A stretch of DNA of 27,443 nt from a virus. The notes below the pieces were generated by a model. That model searched no databases. It had not been told where the DNA came from and saw only the letters and a program-made list of their open reading frames with translations. Position numbers and translations under genes: made by a program. Each line of letters starts with the position of its first letter. Within the stretch, counting starts at the first letter, position 1. Of the stretch, positions 1,701-7,515 are shown in pieces. The stretch lies in the IMG/VR virus record IMGVR_UViG_3300007236_000043, positions 1-27,443 of that record; one strand, given 5' to 3'.

Positions 1701-1997
1701 CTATACGGTAGTCCAGTCAGCACTATCACGCCAGAACTCTGAGTCATTCCATAAGCCTGTATTCAACAACCAAGACTTACTTGGGTCTGTCTGTTCGAAC
1801 TCTGTTGCTATTAACTGTTTCCATGAGAAGTAACCGAACTCAGCCTGGAAGTAGGCCAGCATACGGTCAGCCAAGGTGCCGCTTGTGTAGCCCTGGTCAC
1901 CTAGGTACTTATACTGCATATCGTTAAGTGTGCCCGTGTAACCCTTCTCGGTTAGGATCTGGGCTTCTTGATCTGGGTCATCCGCAAATATCTGCAT
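1701..1997 (-). CDS. Hypothetical 98-aa phage protein
   Basis: Soluble acidic protein with no membrane segment, rich in aromatic residues (several Trp, Tyr and Phe), including QYKYLGDQGYTSGTLADRM and NDSEFWRDSADWTTV. An AAGGGA lies about 13 nt before the ATG, a weak ribosome site. It sits 81 bp before the tail protein and 17 bp after the putative terminase gene, so it is cotranscribed with the late genes. A structural or connector role is possible from position only. I do not recognise a named family. Confidence 0.75.
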   Translation of the reverse strand: MQIFADDPDQEAQILTEKGYTGTLNDMQYKYLGDQGYTSGTLADRMLAYFQAEFGYFSWKQLIATEFEQTDPSKSWLLNTGLWNDSEFWRDSADWTTV

Positions 1998-2014
1998 GAA
2001 ACTCTAAGTATCCC

Positions 2015-2539
2015 TTAATTGACTTTAATGCCTAGGCGTTCTGCATCCTGAGAAAGTAATGACAAAGCCTGTTTGTTCTGCTCTTGCTCTTCCTTGGCTG
2101 CTAACTTCTTCTTAGCCTGAGAAGCATTGTCTTTATCTAACCAACCTTTGTCTAGCAAAAGTTTAGCCGCAGAGAAAGAACTACGACCACCAGTCTTCAT
2201 TTCCTCAGCAATAGCCTTGATAGCCTCAGACTTAACCTTTACTTCTACTTCTCTACGCCAACGCTCTACATGAACCTTGACACCAGGACACTTACTTATG
2301 TTTTGCCATATGTCCCAAGAACCAAAGACTACCTGAGAGAACTCATACTCCGTAGGATCGTTAGGGACCATTGACAAATATAGAGCCTGAAGAGAAAGGT
2401 AATGCTTACCATGAGCCTCTATGTCCTGCTCCTTTAAGGTAAACAAGACATCTGAAGGATCTGCATAGGATAGCTCATAGAACAAACTTACTGTCCGAGC
2501 TTTACCATTAACACCTTTTAGTTGAGATAAGGAGAACAT
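2015..2539 (-). CDS. Putative terminase small subunit-like protein
   Basis: A 174-aa protein and the first gene leftward from the divergent control region. The middle (about residues 58-110) reads MVPNDPTEYEFSQVVFGSWDIW and then a run ending HVERWRREVEVKVKSEAIKAI, and the last 50 residues are a charged Lys/Glu/Gln helix. The DPTEYEF...W...W...EEWR-type pattern resembles small terminase-like proteins of marine podoviruses as I remember them; small terminases recognise the packaging site and pair with the large ATPase. No large terminase is in the window, so this cannot be confirmed by context. There is no clear Shine-Dalgarno before ATG 2539; the transcript from the promoter at 2589-2617 would have a leader of about 43 nt. 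The gene is solid, the function tentative. Confidence 0.55.
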   Translation of the reverse strand: MFSLSQLKGVNGKARTVSLFYELSYADPSDVLFTLKEQDIEAHGKHYLSLQALYLSMVPNDPTEYEFSQVVFGSWDIWQNISKCPGVKVHVERWRREVEVKVKSEAIKAIAEEMKTGGRSSFSAAKLLLDKGWLDKDNASQAKKKLAAKEEQEQNKQALSLLSQDAERLGIKVN

Positions 2540-2588
2540 AAGTATACTAACTATTCTATCTTTTATTTTTTCTGAGGGTACAAGGTTA

Positions 2589-2617
2589 AGTATAGCACCA
2601 TGTTTTTAAGGTGTCAA
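2589..2617 (-). promoter_or_regulatory. Leftward sigma70 promoter for the late operon
   Basis: On the minus strand, TTGACA (2617-2612) and TATACT (2594-2589) are separated by exactly 17 bp. The predicted start is near 2582, about 43 nt before ATG 2539. The match to the housekeeping sigma70 consensus is 11 of 12 bases, which suggests host RNA polymerase transcribes the structural genes. Confidence 0.75.
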
Positions 2618-2676
2618 GAAGAAAATGACAAAAATAAGTAATTAAATTTTTATAGTCCTTGAGGTGATTTTAGGGA

Positions 2677-2705
2677 TTGACAAGAGGCTCAGGAGTGTGT
2701 ATAAT
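2677..2705 (+). promoter_or_regulatory. Perfect-consensus rightward sigma70 promoter
   Basis: TTGACA (2677-2682), a 17-bp spacer and TATAAT (2700-2705): all 12 consensus bases at the ideal spacing. The predicted start is near 2712. No gene follows before the terminator at 2935-2976, so its product appears to be a short noncoding RNA. Its -35 box lies 60 bp from the -35 box of the leftward promoter. Confidence 0.8.
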
Positions 2706-2750
2706 TTCATTATCAGCCCGCCAGGGGTGATATAGTATATATCTATAGGC

Positions 2751-2840
2751 TATACCTTAGTATAAACTAAGGTTACCTTAGTATAGGCTAAGGTCCACTA
2801 CGTAATCACTCTACGTAAGTACTTAACGTAGGTACTTAAC
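2751..2840. repeat. Hairpin and direct-repeat cluster in the control region
   Basis: Hairpin 1 is CCTTAGT-ATAA-ACTAAGG (2755-2772). Hairpin 2 is ACCTTAG-6 nt-CTAAGGT (2775-2794). Both share the arm CCTTAG and the following TATA. Next come CTACGTA twice (from 2797 and 2811), a palindromic 21-mer (2811-2831) and GTACTTAAC twice. The symmetry would serve equally as RNA stem-loops or as binding sites for a dimeric protein. Confidence 0.7.
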
Positions 2841-2934
2841 ACCAATAGGAGTAATAGTAATAGAATAATATTCTTTATGGTTCTTCTTACTTACGCCTAG
2901 TCCTAAGGACAGGTTCAGATTATCTCTGCTATAG

Positions 2935-2976
2935 CACCCCTTGGTACTTAAAATACCTTGGGGTGTTTTTCTTTTT
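2935..2976 (+). terminator. Rho-independent terminator with no upstream gene
   Basis: The arms are CACCCCTTGGTA (2935-2946) and TACCTTGGGGTG (2954-2965) with a 7-nt loop. They pair as 6 bp, a two-base TT/TT internal mismatch and 4 bp, followed by TTTTTCTTTTT. The T-tract is on the plus strand, so it stops rightward transcription before the early genes begin. Confidence 0.75.
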
Positions 2977-3396
2977 GTTTATGTGTGTGTGTGTGTACTA
3001 TGGCAATCCTTTTTGGCACCTAGGGAAAACTTATGAGAAAATTTAGGGTTGCATTGTACATACAGTAGGCACCCCCACGTCCCCCTTGGTCTCCCCTGCG
3101 CATCCCCTTACATTTAATGCCCCACCCCTAGGCTTTCCCTTGGTATTACCTGGGTGTTGCCTTGGTATTGCCTTAGTGTTGCCTTGATTGGGGTGAGGAT
3201 AGCTTAATGTTAATAGGATTTACATTAGGTAGGTCATATGGGAAATAAACCTAAGCTCACCTTGAGCTATTCATGCCCCTGCAATCCCTAGGCTTTTCCC
3301 TGGGCTACCCTTCCAGGCATATCCTTGGCTAATACTTGGCTTATGGGATGTTTAAGATATTTCTTTCGGTAGTCATAAATTAATTTAAATTAGGTG
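2977..3396. other. Non-coding stretch between the orphan terminator and the early promoter
   Basis: I see no plausible gene on either strand. It starts with an alternating TG run (2982-2996). From about 3067 the plus strand is strikingly C-rich, with runs such as CACCCCCACGTCCCCC and TGCCCCACCCC. It then holds the 22-bp tandem repeat (3138-3181) and two copies of a CCCTAGGCTTT(T)CCC motif (3126-3143 and 3286-3304). Strand asymmetry plus repeats in a divergent promoter region would fit a replication origin, but no recognised origin motif was found. Confidence 0.5.
3138..3187 (+). repeat. 22-bp tandem repeat, two copies plus a partial third
   Basis: Copy 1 is 3138-3159 and copy 2 is 3160-3181. 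They start CCTTGGTATT and end GTGTTG, differing at three positions in the middle. A third partial copy starts CCTTGATT at 3182. The array is too short and without spacers, so it is not CRISPR; it is iteron-like. Confidence 0.7.
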
Positions 3397-3426
3397 TTGA
3401 CAAATAGAATTATGGTTGTTTATGTT
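3397..3426 (+). promoter_or_regulatory. Early rightward promoter of the replication operon
   Basis: TTGACA (3397-3402), an 18-bp spacer and TATGTT (3421-3426). The predicted start is near 3433, about 32 nt before the first early ATG (3465), leaving room for the ribosome site AAGGA at 3451-3455. The -35 box is perfect and the -10 box matches 4 of 6. Confidence 0.65.
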
Positions 3427-3464
3427 GGTGTCACTAACACAAACCCCTGAAAGGATCTAAGCCA

Positions 3465-4088
3465 ATGGCTCACCCTCTAATTCATATTTCTAAAATGACT
3501 GGTAAGCTGGACGGGTTCCAGGCTATCAGCACTAACACCATGACAAACGAGTATTGCATTAAGCAAAACGCAAGTGGCAAGGCTGACAACATTTGCACCA
3601 AGTGTTACAGTCACACAATGCTAAAGTCATACCGAAAGAATATGCAACCGGCATTGCAGCGTAACAGTGAAGCCTTGGCTAATAAAGTGCATGATATGGA
3701 TTACCTTCCGTCAATCAATCAGGCTTGGTTTAGGTTCAATGCTCATGGTGAATTGATTAACCTAACTCACCTAGAAAACCTAAACAGAATAGCAAGGAAG
3801 AACCCCCACTGTTCCTTTGCTCTTTGGACTAAACGGAATGATTTGGTGTCAAAATACTACAAGACAAGGGAAAAACCTAGCAACATGATCTTGATCTACT
3901 CTAACTCTAAGGTGTCAACTATTATGAGCAAGCCACCAAAGCACTTTGACAGAACATTTAATAATGTTTTAGAGCATGAGCATGTTGACAAACAGAATTG
4001 CACTGGTCAAAAATGTAAAGACTGCCGCCTATGTTATACTATAGGCAACCAAGTAACCACCATTGTGGAGATGGTAAAGAAATACTAA
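3465..4088 (+). CDS. Cysteine-cluster protein resembling the phage Gp88 family
   Basis: First gene of the early operon, 207 aa. The N-terminal third has NICTKCYSHTML (Cys-x2-Cys) followed by SYR...LQRNSEAL. The C-terminus has CTGQKCKDCRLCY, that is C-x4-C-x2-C-x2-C. This arrangement, an N-terminal C..CY pair and a terminal Cys cluster, resembles the phage family called gene product 88, whose biochemical role I do not know. The clusters probably bind zinc or an iron-sulfur centre. The ribosome site AAGGA is 9 nt before the ATG. As the first early product it could be a host-takeover factor (inference). Confidence 0.6.
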   Translation: MAHPLIHISKMTGKLDGFQAISTNTMTNEYCIKQNASGKADNICTKCYSHTMLKSYRKNMQPALQRNSEALANKVHDMDYLPSINQAWFRFNAHGELINLTHLENLNRIARKNPHCSFALWTKRNDLVSKYYKTREKPSNMILIYSNSKVSTIMSKPPKHFDRTFNNVLEHEHVDKQNCTGQKCKDCRLCYTIGNQVTTIVEMVKKY

Positions 4089-4102
4089 AGGAGAAACTAA
4101 AG

Positions 4103-4327
4103 ATGTTCTATTGTATAGCAACCAAAGCCCTCAAGGATGGCACTCAAGGATTCCGCTTCAATGTGTGTGGCGTCAAAGGATTAACTCGCAAGAGGTTATT
4201 CAAGCGCCGCTGGGGCATAGCCAAAGGCAAGTCAATGGTGTCATTGCATATTGGTAAGCGTTCTGTTTATATTGAACGGAAGACAAACAAGACCAAAGGT
4301 AAAAGGATCAGGCATTTTGCAGGATGA
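4103..4327 (+). CDS. Small basic hypothetical protein (74 aa)
   Basis: Start ATG 4103 was chosen over an upstream in-frame start inside the preceding gene because AAAGGAG precedes it by about 9 nt. The product is strongly basic (RKRLFKRRWG and ERKTNKTKGKRIRH), with no membrane segment or recognised domain. It could bind nucleic acid. It belongs to the early small-gene set. Confidence 0.65.
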   Translation: MFYCIATKALKDGTQGFRFNVCGVKGLTRKRLFKRRWGIAKGKSMVSLHIGKRSVYIERKTNKTKGKRIRHFAG

Positions 4328-4457
4328 ATTACCTAAGTATCTCGAGAGAGAATTGGATCTGCTGGGTGTTGTGTCTCAACGCATGACACCTAGGCAACCA
4401 CAAGAGAAACAAGAGCCACCTCAAGTATGGGATGGCAAAGGGGATTGTCCCTTTTAA
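4317..4457 (+). CDS. Small hypothetical protein with a TTG start (46 aa)
   Basis: The frame is open from TTG 4251, but TTG 4317 is preceded by AAAAGGA at 9 nt and avoids a long overlap with the previous gene, so it is the likelier start. The product is charged, with a Pro/Gln-rich tail ending VWDGKGDCPF. No family recognised. Its position between two well-supported early genes supports expression, but the start codon is uncertain. Confidence 0.4.
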   Translation: MQDELPKYLERELDLLGVVSQRMTPRQPQEKQEPPQVWDGKGDCPF

Positions 4458-4473
4458 ATTAGGAGAAACTAAT

Positions 4474-4644
4474 ATGCTAGTGCAAGTTATTACCCTGAAT
4501 ATTTCCGATGGGGGTCAAACCACATATGTTGACATAGTAGGCACAGAGGATGCCGCAGAGAGTTATTTCATTTTGGATTTCCACAGAGAAGGGGGTGGGA
4601 ATGGGACATTGAGAGTGTGCAAACTAGTGGAGGTAAGCCAATGA
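4474..4644 (+). CDS. Small hypothetical early protein (56 aa)
   Basis: ATG 4474 follows TTAGGAGAAACTAAT, a strong ribosome site, and is preferred to the in-frame upstream ATG at 4432. The product starts MLVQVITLNISDGGQTTYVD, looks like a small beta-rich soluble domain and ends CKLVEVSQ. Its stop overlaps the next ATG as ATGA, so translation is probably coupled. No recognised family. Confidence 0.6.
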   Translation: MLVQVITLNISDGGQTTYVDIVGTEDAAESYFILDFHREGGGNGTLRVCKLVEVSQ

Positions 4645-4976
4645 TCTATGCAATCGCAGACGTACCACACGCAGATTATGACAATTATGACATGCTTAAT
4701 AAGCTCTTTCACGCATTGTCACCGCTTGGCTGGGAGCATAGCTCGTGGAAGAATGACACATGCCCATCACTCCACTTTGATGACATGAAAGAGGAACGGC
4801 ATGGCAACACCTGCCAGATATTCGTGGACTATGCAGACCCCGCCATGCGAGAGGATCCAGAGTGGCCTGTGCTGTCATTCAACTGCTATGACGCAGAGGG
4901 AATGCTGACACTCCAGAATGATTTTGACAATGTGGACAAGCTCCTAATCTATCTAACAGGGAAGGTGACACAATGA
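4641..4976 (+). CDS. Hypothetical early protein (111 aa)
   Basis: ATG 4641 is preceded by GGAGG. The product is acidic and soluble and starts MIYAIADVPHADYDNYDML. A central segment has WEHSSWKNDTCPSLHFDDM, and the end is hydrophobic-alternating (NVDKLLIYLTGKVTQ). Four Cys residues are scattered and form no clear metal motif. It overlaps both neighbours by ATGA. Function unknown; a small early protein of this kind often targets host processes, but nothing here identifies a target. Confidence 0.65.
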   Translation: MIYAIADVPHADYDNYDMLNKLFHALSPLGWEHSSWKNDTCPSLHFDDMKEERHGNTCQIFVDYADPAMREDPEWPVLSFNCYDAEGMLTLQNDFDNVDKLLIYLTGKVTQ

Positions 4977-5272
4977 CAAGGACAAGGGCAAGACAGTTAG
5001 AGGTTGTAAGGGTAGCAAGGGCCAAGGCATTTGTTGACAACTACAAGATGAACCAAGGCTGCAATAGGTGTGGCTTTGCCGAACATCCTGTAGCACTACA
5101 AATGAACCACATAGATCCCAGCACTAAGTTCAAGAATGTCTCTGAGTTAGTGAAGAAAGGTGTCATTGATACAATCAAGACGGAGCTGTCAAAGTGTGAG
5201 GTTCTTTGTGCTAACTGTCACGCTGTCCACACATATGCAAACCAACATCACAGAGAGGAGTTAGGCTCATGA
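4973..5272 (+). CDS. Small HNH endonuclease-like protein (99 aa)
   Basis: An HNH (beta-beta-alpha metal) fold is suggested by CNRCG (C30, C33), ALQMNHIDP (N45, H46) and CEVLCANCHAVHT (C79, C82, H83, H86): two Cys pairs that bind zinc around the His-Asn-His nuclease core. HNH proteins cut DNA using a divalent metal. At 99 aa it is near the minimum for the domain and has no added DNA-binding module, so it may be a free-standing homing endonuclease or a nuclease used in host DNA breakdown. It overlaps both neighbours by ATGA, unlike an unadapted insertion. Confidence 0.8.
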   Translation: MTRTRARQLEVVRVARAKAFVDNYKMNQGCNRCGFAEHPVALQMNHIDPSTKFKNVSELVKKGVIDTIKTELSKCEVLCANCHAVHTYANQHHREELGS

Positions 5273-5415
5273 TCCGTATTGTACTGACCAGCAAGAGAAC
5301 AAACCAAGAGATCTGCTATCATACATGCAAGAGACTGGACGAGGCGGAGAAACATGCCGAGATTTATAGTCGTATGGATGGTGTCAAAACGGAGATAGTG
5401 GGGGTGACACAATGA
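5269..5415 (+). CDS. Small hypothetical protein (48 aa)
   Basis: ATG 5269 follows GAGAGGAG at good spacing, overlaps the stop of the HNH gene and ends by ATGA overlap with the next gene. The product begins MIRIVLTSKRTNQEICYHTC and continues as a helix (LDEAEKHAEIYSRM). The pattern resembles small phage proteins with a beta-hairpin followed by a helix. No family assigned. Couplings at both ends make it likely real. Confidence 0.65.
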   Translation: MIRIVLTSKRTNQEICYHTCKRLDEAEKHAEIYSRMDGVKTEIVGVTQ

Positions 5416-5600
5416 CAAAGCGTAGGGACATAACACCAATAAGATCATACCAGATAAGACAAATAGATGTTATTGATGATGCTGACTGGCTAACGGAGCA
5501 AGAACGTGTCCATAGGTATGAAGAAGAAATAGAAGACTGCCTGTTGGTGGTGATGCCTAAGGAATATACCTATAGAACCCTTGTCAGGGACAAGCCCTAG
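5412..5600 (+). CDS. Small hypothetical protein (62 aa)
   Basis: Starts by ATGA overlap with the 48-aa gene. The N-terminus is basic (MTKRRDITPIRSYQIRQ) and the middle acidic (WLTEQERVHRYEEEIEDC). No membrane segment and no recognised domain. Part of the early small-gene set. Confidence 0.55.
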   Translation: MTKRRDITPIRSYQIRQIDVIDDADWLTEQERVHRYEEEIEDCLLVVMPKEYTYRTLVRDKP

Positions 5601-5638
5601 GGTATCAACATTTTCAGATGTGTCAAGAGGGAATCGAC

Positions 5639-5896
5639 ATGGATTATGAAACAAATATCAGGCGTCATGACGGAGAGTATACCGTCTATGGAGAGCTATG
5701 GGATGATGGTATGGGGTTCTGGGATAAATGGGGTGACACAGGCTATACCTTCGAGGTGCAGCACGAGCCAGAGTTCTCTGTCACTGAGCTATACAACAAG
5801 GATGGCAAGCCCGTTCCATTAACTACCTTGACACCTAAGGAGATCCTTGTCATCATAGACATCTTCACACAAGACTATTGGGATCACATATTATGA
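5639..5896 (+). CDS. Hypothetical protein (85 aa) before the primase
   Basis: Start ATG 5639 was chosen because AAGAGGG lies about 8 nt upstream; an in-frame ATG at 5618 lacks such a site. The acidic, aromatic-rich N-terminus is MDYETNIRRHDGEYTVYGE followed by LWDDGMGFWDKWGDTGY, ending with a helix (TPKEILVIIDIFTQDYWD). It overlaps the primase gene by ATGA. Function unknown. Confidence 0.65.
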   Translation: MDYETNIRRHDGEYTVYGELWDDGMGFWDKWGDTGYTFEVQHEPEFSVTELYNKDGKPVPLTTLTPKEILVIIDIFTQDYWDHIL

Positions 5897-7515
5897 ATTG
5901 GAAATCACATAAGCCTTGTCCCTACGAGGATTGCGGTAGCACAGATGCCTTTAGCTATAACCTGGACAGCATGTCAGGTAGGTGTCACAGCTGTGAACGT
6001 AAGTACCCAAGGGACAAGGCAGCAAAGCTAGACTGGGCAGAGGAAGAGTATCCTACTCAGGGACAGCAGCAACAAGAGAAGGATGATTGGGACATGGAGC
6101 CAGCGATCAAGGCAGTGCCTACCGAGGTACTCACAGGCGTATACCGAACCATACGTAGCATCTCAGACCAGACCATGCGAAAGTATGACTGTAAGACATA
6201 CCTAGACAAGGATGGCAAAGAGGTTAAGCAAGAATACATCTACCCTTCTGGTGGTGTTAAGACACGTTACTTCCCAAAGGAGTTCCGTGCAGTTAACCTC
6301 AAGTCAGACGAGCTATACGGTATGAACCTCTGGAACGCAGGGTCAGGTAAGATTGTGACCATATGCGAGGGTGAGCTAGACGCCATGTCTGCCTATCAGA
6401 TGTGTCATAACCCTAAGTTCTCCTCTGCCTTTGTGTCACTGCCATCGGCAACACCATCGAAGAAGCTATGGACAAACACAAACGATTGGCTGTCATCCTT
6501 TGACAAGATCATTCTGTCTATCGAGCATGATGACCAAGGCAATGCCGTGGCCCAGCGCATAGCTAACCTATACCCCAATAAGGTATACCGTGTGCAGCAT
6601 GACAAGTACAAGGATGCCAATGAGTTCCTTGAGGCAGGTGCAAAGAATGAATACTATAACGCCTGGATGAATGCCCGTAAGTATACCCCAGAGAATGTCA
6701 TCAACACCACTGACCAGTTCCTTAGCCTCTACAACAAGGCAGAGAACCACACCTATGTTGAGACAGGCATACAAGACTTCGATGATATGTGCCTAGGCCT
6801 GATGCAAGGACACTTCACCCTGTTCAAGGCCCAGACAGGCATAGGTAAGACAGAGTTTATGCGCTACTTGGAGTATCGTATTCTGGCTAAGAACCCTGAC
6901 ATCAAGATCGCCACATGGCACATGGAGGAGACTAAGCTACGATCCTTGTTGGGTCTGGTGTCATACGACATCAAGGATAACGTGACCCGCATGGACTTGA
7001 TCGAGGACAAGGGTGTCAGTGCCAAGGTACAAGAGTCAATCAGCAACATAACCAAGGACGAGAGACTATTCCAGTTCTTCTTGAATGACGAGGACGATCC
7101 CCTTGACCTGCTCGGGCACATACGTTATCTATCCCAGGCTTGTGATGTTAACTATATCTTCTTCGAGCCTATCCAAGACATCGCAGCTAACATGGGCGGT
7201 GACGAGAGCAAAGAGCAATTCCTTGCGGATCTATCTGTCAGGCTATCTAAGTTAGCCGCTGAGTTGAACGTAGGTATCGTGACCATCGGGCACACTAATG
7301 ATGACGGTCAGGTTAAGTACTGCCGTATGATAGAACAACGAGCATCTGTTGTTGTTGATCTACAACGCAACAAGATGGCTGAGGACGAGGACGAAAGGAA
7401 CACAACCAAGTTACTTGTCACAAAGAACAGACCAGTGGGTCCAACAGGGTACGCAGGACAACTTAAGTTTAACACTAACACCTTTACATTGGAAGAAAAG
7501 TATGCCTTCATTTGA
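5893..7515 (+). CDS. Bifunctional DNA primase-helicase (T7 gp4-like)
   Basis: A 540-aa replicative primase and 5'-3' helicase. Domain order: zinc ribbon with C9, C14, C31 and C34, which reads the priming site; toprim-like primase with EGELDA at 159-164 and EHDDQG at 211-216; DnaB-type RecA helicase with the Walker A AQTGIGKT at 313-320, the Walker B region YIFFEPIQD near 421-429 and the GIVTIGHTND segment near 461-470. The length is close to T7 gp4 (566 aa). Two acidic sites carry Glu where Asp is usual: the first residue of toprim DxDxxG (E211) and Walker B (E425). ATG 5893 overlaps the previous stop, which decides it over a TTG at 5878. It works with the split polymerase and the SSB downstream. 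Confidence 0.95.
   Translation: MNWKSHKPCPYEDCGSTDAFSYNLDSMSGRCHSCERKYPRDKAAKLDWAEEEYPTQGQQQQEKDDWDMEPAIKAVPTEVLTGVYRTIRSISDQTMRKYDCKTYLDKDGKEVKQEYIYPSGGVKTRYFPKEFRAVNLKSDELYGMNLWNAGSGKIVTICEGELDAMSAYQMCHNPKFSSAFVSLPSATPSKKLWTNTNDWLSSFDKIILSIEHDDQGNAVAQRIANLYPNKVYRVQHDKYKDANEFLEAGAKNEYYNAWMNARKYTPENVINTTDQFLSLYNKAENHTYVETGIQDFDDMCLGLMQGHFTLFKAQTGIGKTEFMRYLEYRILAKNPDIKIATWHMEETKLRSLLGLVSYDIKDNVTRMDLIEDKGVSAKVQESISNITKDERLFQFFLNDEDDPLDLLGHIRYLSQACDVNYIFFEPIQDIAANMGGDESKEQFLADLSVRLSKLAAELNVGIVTIGHTNDDGQVKYCRMIEQRASVVVDLQRNKMAEDEDERNTTKLLVTKNRPVGPTGYAGQLKFNTNTFTLEEKYAFI

Follow-up and report, generated by a model that had tools for sequence, protein, structure and literature searches.

A conserved promoter-terminator unit at the right genome end of Veravirus-like cobaviruses is predicted to encode a structured noncoding RNA

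We describe a short transcription unit, made up of a promoter, a predicted noncoding RNA and a terminator, in a stretch of viral DNA of 27,443 nucleotides (nt; IMG/VR record IMGVR_UViG_3300007236_000043, positions 1 to 27,443), the whole of which is referred to here as the window. The unit is read on the plus strand and lies between the last gene of the leftward, late arm and the first early gene of the window. It begins with the promoter TTGACA-N17-TATAAT at 2677-2705, which matches the sigma70 consensus exactly, at 12 of 12 positions, and is the only 12/12 site found when both strands of the window were scanned; dinucleotide shuffles of the whole window give an expectation of 0.01 such sites per window. 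It ends with an intrinsic terminator on the same strand (2934-2976), in which a hairpin with the stem CACCCC-uu-GGUA....UACC-uu-GGGGUG (2935-2965) is followed by the T-tract TTTTTCTTTTT (2966-2976). The 2x2 UU/UU internal loop makes a simple terminator scan overlook this hairpin, yet it folds both in the window and in its relatives, among which the stem sequence varies from group to group while the pairing and, in most, the UU/UU internal loop are kept. The predicted RNA extends from an inferred start at about 2712 to the T-tract at 2976, a length of about 265 nt and, with a promoter and an intrinsic terminator of its own, the unit has the make-up of a stand-alone small RNA gene. An earlier, sequence-only reading of the window had taken this to be its strongest promoter, with a hairpin and T-tract stopping the transcript near 2976, and in both respects it was correct.

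Its genes and similarities mark the window as part of the genome of a Veravirus-like cobavirus (Zobellviridae, Cobavirinae). It displays the two-arm genome, the cobalamin-dependent ribonucleotide reductase, which is encoded in the window phage, and the direct terminal repeat (DTR) region of these phages, and its gene order matches that of its nearest named relatives, Roseobacter phage CRP-5 and then Lentibacter phage ICBM2; the DNA identity to CRP-5 is 94.5% over the aligned 57% of window positions 1701-7500, in the early arm. Both of these isolates carry the unit. We fetched relatives through the neighbouring protein (2015-2539), ignoring the promoter, and obtained 36 loci with upstream sequence; the promoter match, with its 17-bp spacing, was 12/12 in 28 of them and 11/12 in four (32/36 at 11-12/12), 10/12 in one, 9/12 in two and absent from one. 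A pattern search anchored on the start of the DTR gave 42 distinct homologous units in the same place, 36 of them with a 12/12 promoter, which is not an unbiased count, as the search demands TTGACA and a 17-bp spacing. The CRP-4-like phages have the weaker promoter TTGACA-N17-TACCCT, and the unit is not found in the Cobavirinae record T5S1-k141_653015. Every unit found occupies a fixed place beside the DTR and the conserved box that precedes it. Between the window and CRP-5, identity reaches 92.5% in the first 40 nt of the RNA and 94.2% in its last block, against 74.7% in the adjacent gene and 70.2% in the leader region of that gene, so that the ends of the RNA are better conserved than the adjacent protein gene. 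Loss of promoter and terminator in close relatives, which the sequence-only reading would have counted against itself, was not seen within the Veravirus-like clade.

The predicted RNA (2712-2976) folds at -82.9 kcal/mol, with a z score of -4.55 and better than all 200 shuffles, and the full-length folds of 16 diverse members have z scores of -1.9 to -5.3; the examples folded range in length from 103 to 267 nt, and the RNA is predicted to measure about 210 nt in CRP-5 and about 260 nt in ICBM2. At the 5' terminus, starting at the inferred transcription start site, lies the hairpin AUCAgCCC-GCCA-GGGgUGAU (2712-2731, plus strand), which folds in most groups and is weak in ICBM2 and in the relatives L008 and L009. 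The arms of this hairpin differ between groups, reading AUCAgCCC/GGGgUGAU, GUAUCGCU/AGCGGUAC, UAUAGCUGC/GCAGC(c)UAUA, AUCCC/GGGAU or ACCCC/GGGGU. When each arm is set against its own partner, 32 of 36 positions pair, compared with 15-22 when arms are swapped between groups, and changes on both sides are observed between groups at eight of the nine pair positions; in a wider set of eight, 42 of 48 positions are paired, a figure reached by 38 of 5000 shuffles, with alignments that were made by hand and omit one bulged C. The 5' hairpin is, to judge from these alignments, kept by compensatory change. Covariation in related phages had been proposed as a check, and compensatory changes occur in the 5' hairpin and in the terminator only.

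The middle of the RNA is variable and full of short tandem palindromes. In the window it holds two tandem 21-nt hairpins (2753-2794, plus strand), which are absent from CRP-5, and more short hairpin repeats (CTACGTA..., GTACTTAACGTAG...; 2798-2839, plus strand), which are expanded in the relative L085; these are the hairpins and repeats that the sequence-only reading had noticed. Just before the terminator is the motif CCTAAGGACAGGTTCAGATT (2902-2921, plus strand), common to most groups, and this pre-terminator motif (CTAAGGACAnnTnCAGATTCTAC) is present in 2-3 copies in ICBM2, L101 and L009. A short palindromic insert (like GAGAAGACGTAGTCTTTGACTACTTTGG), found within the motif or right after the terminator in L104, L109, L132 and L133, looks like a small mobile repeat.

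No open reading frame (ORF) of more than 7 codons occurs in the window copy of the unit and none is shared among the units of 16 diverse relatives; a coding peptide is rejected. A search of Rfam (4227 families, including pRNA and 6S) with the window and its relatives gave no match at the gathering threshold; the best permissive match, to AniS (22.6 bits against a threshold of 50, E 0.15), is not credible, and a search for tRNA and tmRNA found none. The sequence-only reading, which saw no ORF in these 265 nt, recognised no known RNA family and proposed a dedicated noncoding RNA, is thus well supported by a unit that is conserved, devoid of ORFs, structured and terminated. Those matches to the motif and to the 5' block in IMG/VR that could be placed all belong to this RNA unit. 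Because the motif is repeated in some relatives, a solitary CRISPR repeat (an RNA anti-CRISPR) was also considered, and was set aside, as the motif is not known to resemble such repeats. The annotations of the isolates show only proteins at the location of the unit, and the main texts of the cobavirus and RCA phage articles that were searched mention neither a promoter nor a noncoding RNA, for which reason we rate this as a new RNA family among the phage small RNAs.

The position of the unit in the genome bears directly on its interpretation. A DTR of 159 bp has been mapped in ICBM2 with PacBio reads (PMC6775973). It begins ATTGTACATACAG, and the identical sequence is found at window position 3053, where by homology to the annotated ICBM2 repeat we place the start of a DTR, and hence a genome end, at 3053-3246, the end being approximate. 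The window spans the joined genome ends. On virion DNA, with the DTR placed by homology, the RNA unit would lie at the right genome end, with its promoter about 570 bp, and the 3' end of the RNA about 270 bp, short of where the DNA is inferred to end, and the early promoter would lie at the left end, some 40 kb away. On virion DNA, then, the early genes do not follow the unit, because the inferred DTR (3053-3246) separates them; unit and early promoter would adjoin only on concatemers or circles, and the timing of RNA synthesis would depend on which genome end enters first. Two suggestions of the sequence-only reading, that the RNA is made at once on infection, with a second promoter then serving the early genes, and that it may be an attenuated leader of those genes, lose their support because the DTR puts the unit at the right genome end.

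Immediately ahead of the DTR is a conserved box, GAGAAAATTTAGGGTTGC (3035-3052), which is kept in nearly all relatives and is likely to be part of the terminase recognition site. A conserved stretch across the DTR start (3035-3100), again in nearly all relatives, consists of GAGAAAATNTTNGGTGCAT, TGTACATAYAG and then the C-rich TACCCCC, and is probably where the terminase cuts. The inferred DTR itself contains, at window positions 3126-3190, several copies of an 11-bp repeat (CCTTGGTATTG-like), and CCTTGG is also found in the RNA terminator and ahead of the ICBM2 DTR. A (GT)n run at 2983-2998, between the terminator and the pre-DTR box, is not present in CRP-5.

To the left, the noncoding region is bordered by the last gene of the late, leftward arm (2015-2539, minus strand; PHROG 8035, unknown function). 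In Citrovirus and other Zobellviridae its homologue immediately precedes the large terminase gene (TerL), and because of this placement the gene is possibly an unannotated small terminase subunit of the cobaviruses; in Citrovirus and Vibrio phages the homologue sits in a different context. The late arm has a divergent, leftward sigma70 promoter, TTGACA-N17-TATACT (2589-2617, minus strand; 11/12), and almost every relative, as well as Siovirus, keeps it with a match of 10-12/12. The RNA unit stands back-to-back with this promoter, the two -35 boxes being 37-59 bp apart in the relatives compared by eye. On the left-end side of the DTR, the second promoter of the sequence-only reading does exist (3397-3426, plus strand; 10/12, with the same position in CRP-5), ahead of the first early gene in the window, a member of the Pfam GP88 family (3465-4088, plus strand). 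Another conserved noncoding stretch lies at about 470-738 of ICBM2 (L083), at the left genome end and directly before the first early gene; it shares 87.5% identity with SIO1 across 273 nt and 81% with part of ICBM1, is not present in the window or CRP-5, has no Rfam match and folds with a z score of only -1.2.

We put about even confidence in the proposal that the unit encodes a new, fast-evolving and stable phage small RNA that would act in trans. No RNA polymerase gene is present in SIO1 or in CRP-4 and CRP-5 (PMC6775973, PMC6918029) and, as the phages thus encode no such enzyme, it would be host RNA polymerase that transcribes the unit, strongly, from the near-consensus sigma70 promoter. 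The ends of the transcript would be protected by the 5' hairpin and the terminator, and a stable RNA of about 100-260 nt would therefore accumulate. It may then pair with, or titrate, an RNA of the host or the phage, or else a protein that binds RNA. Contact would most probably be made through the CTAAGGACAnnTnCAGATTCTAC motif or motifs before the terminator in the lineages that have them, and the fast-changing middle and varying motif copy number would fit a decoy or regulator directed against a varying host target. In its most specific form, the idea is that the RNA evolved in a lytic podovirus clade to silence an RNA or an RNA-binding factor of the host, or to act as a decoy for it, the target being for instance part of a defence or of RNA turnover and the number of motif copies being adjusted to the host; it would represent a new class of RNA counter-measure; this we regard as speculative and improbable as it stands.

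Several observations weigh against a trans-acting RNA. There is no such unit in Siovirus (SIO1, ICBM1, P12053L), though the late promoter is present there, and these phages belong to the same subfamily and have a DTR start similar to that of the unit-bearing phages. Without the terminator, the fold is unremarkable in several members; the pre-terminator motif is absent from the most divergent units (L187, L193, L197) and is not consistently unpaired in predicted folds. Neither the 20-nt motif nor the 5' block has an exact copy in 85,000 species genomes, the RNA does not pair with the late leader (mean z +0.4), and across eight genomes no phage mRNA is shared as a target of the motif beyond chance. 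The best target family, a small membrane protein with a mean rank of 0.20 in 6 genomes and with uncurated start sites, is what is expected from testing many families.

The chief competitor to an RNA product, with a distinctly smaller though still appreciable chance of being right, is that the act of transcription is itself functional, as has been proposed for the right-end promoter of T7: a strong promoter near the right end, with a stop about 80 bp before the terminal repeat, would open or mark that end so that DNA can enter, be replicated or be processed from concatemers. The fixed place of every unit beside the DTR and its box speaks for this, as does the persistence of promoter and terminator while the length and sequence of the RNA vary greatly, and a T7-like replication and packaging strategy has been inferred by the authors of the cobavirus study (PMC6775973). 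Siovirus, however, has the same DTR start and late promoter and no such promoter, and the compensatory changes in the 5' hairpin and the well-conserved RNA ends point to a product; it is because of these changes, and because the RNA ends out-conserve the neighbouring gene, that we favour a product over transcription as such. If the product served as a primer or regulator of DNA replication at a right-end origin, in the manner of plasmid RNA II or the prophage-origin RNAs of mycobacteriophages, the AT-rich and palindrome-rich stretch behind a strong promoter at the genome end would be in place, and RNA-based origins have been reported in Alma and LadyBird (PMC7157519). We consider this unlikely: the strong terminator stops the RNA before any conserved downstream sequence that it could prime, the phages encode their own primase/helicase, the sister genus Siovirus lacks the unit and we found no precedent in a lytic T7-like podovirus.

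The remaining two alternatives are weaker again. If the RNA were an attenuated leader, some transcripts made on concatemers or circular DNA would pass the terminator and continue into the early genes. Once the ends are joined, those genes do follow the unit in the same orientation, and pairing is possible between GGGGTGATATAG (from 2724) and the terminator sequence CTATAGCACCCC (2929-2940). On virion DNA, however, the genome ends between the unit and the early genes, these genes have their own conserved promoter, and the antiterminator-like pairing was not found outside the window's own group; with the DTR in between, attenuation of the early genes is rejected as a main role of the unit, and in any form it is very improbable. 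Least probable of all, if by little, is that the RNA forms a structural part of the packaging machine, as in phi29. Its gene does adjoin both a possible small terminase gene and the end at which the DNA is cut for packaging, but Siovirus packages via a similar DTR without it, so that the RNA is not common to all phages with this packaging machine, its length and fold are too variable for a fixed part of a ring, and the Rfam search, in which the phi29 pRNA family was included, gave no match.

The cobaviruses count among the widespread phages that infect marine roseobacters. Should the predicted RNA indeed be produced, it may rank with the most abundant phage transcripts of the infected cell, as is seen with mycobacteriophage L5, and might be detected in ocean metatranscriptomes; since the isolates CRP-5 and ICBM2 exist with cultured hosts, the question can be put directly to the test. 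The RNA would then also give phage genome ends a second example of a strong noncoding RNA, unrelated to the first.

Known systems resemble the unit in different respects. The right end of T7 carries the phiOR promoter, which is used by T7 RNA polymerase, and a pause site at the concatemer junction; no RNA product of this region is known to matter. In both phages a promoter near the right end points to the terminal repeat, and a stop or pause site lies ahead of the repeat or at it, the promoter at 2677-2705 being likewise upstream of the right terminal repeat and directed towards it, but here the promoter is of the host sigma70 type and the terminator intrinsic. The pRNA of phi29, a small packaging RNA, is also encoded at a phage genome end; the cobavirus RNA differs in having no family match, no fixed fold and sister phages that lack it. 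Lambda OOP is likewise a short, terminated RNA with its own promoter and was once proposed as a replication primer (PMC12197685); it is antisense to cII, whereas the cobavirus RNA is overlapped by no gene on the opposite strand. VpdS, PreS and SprY are proven trans-acting small RNAs, mostly of temperate phages or prophages (PMC12197685). The cobavirus RNA is likewise a stand-alone phage small RNA, for which host RNA or RNA-binding proteins are the expected targets, with the difference that trans action is proven there and proposed here.

The nearest analogue is found in the mycobacteriophages L5, D29 and StarStuff, which produce an abundant, stable noncoding RNA at the right end of the genome; it is about 500 nt long, is transcribed from Pleft towards the genes, is processed, has been demonstrated by Northern blot and RNA-seq, and derives from a region that is toxic to the host (PMC5712189). 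Other mycobacteriophages have noncoding RNAs at their prophage origins (PMC7157519). The cobavirus RNA, in contrast to that of L5, D29 and StarStuff, is 100-260 nt long, reads out towards the genome end and is predicted from sequence, and as far as can be told there is no homology in sequence between the two. They are alike in being terminated, in having no conserved ORF and in the rapid change of their sequences.
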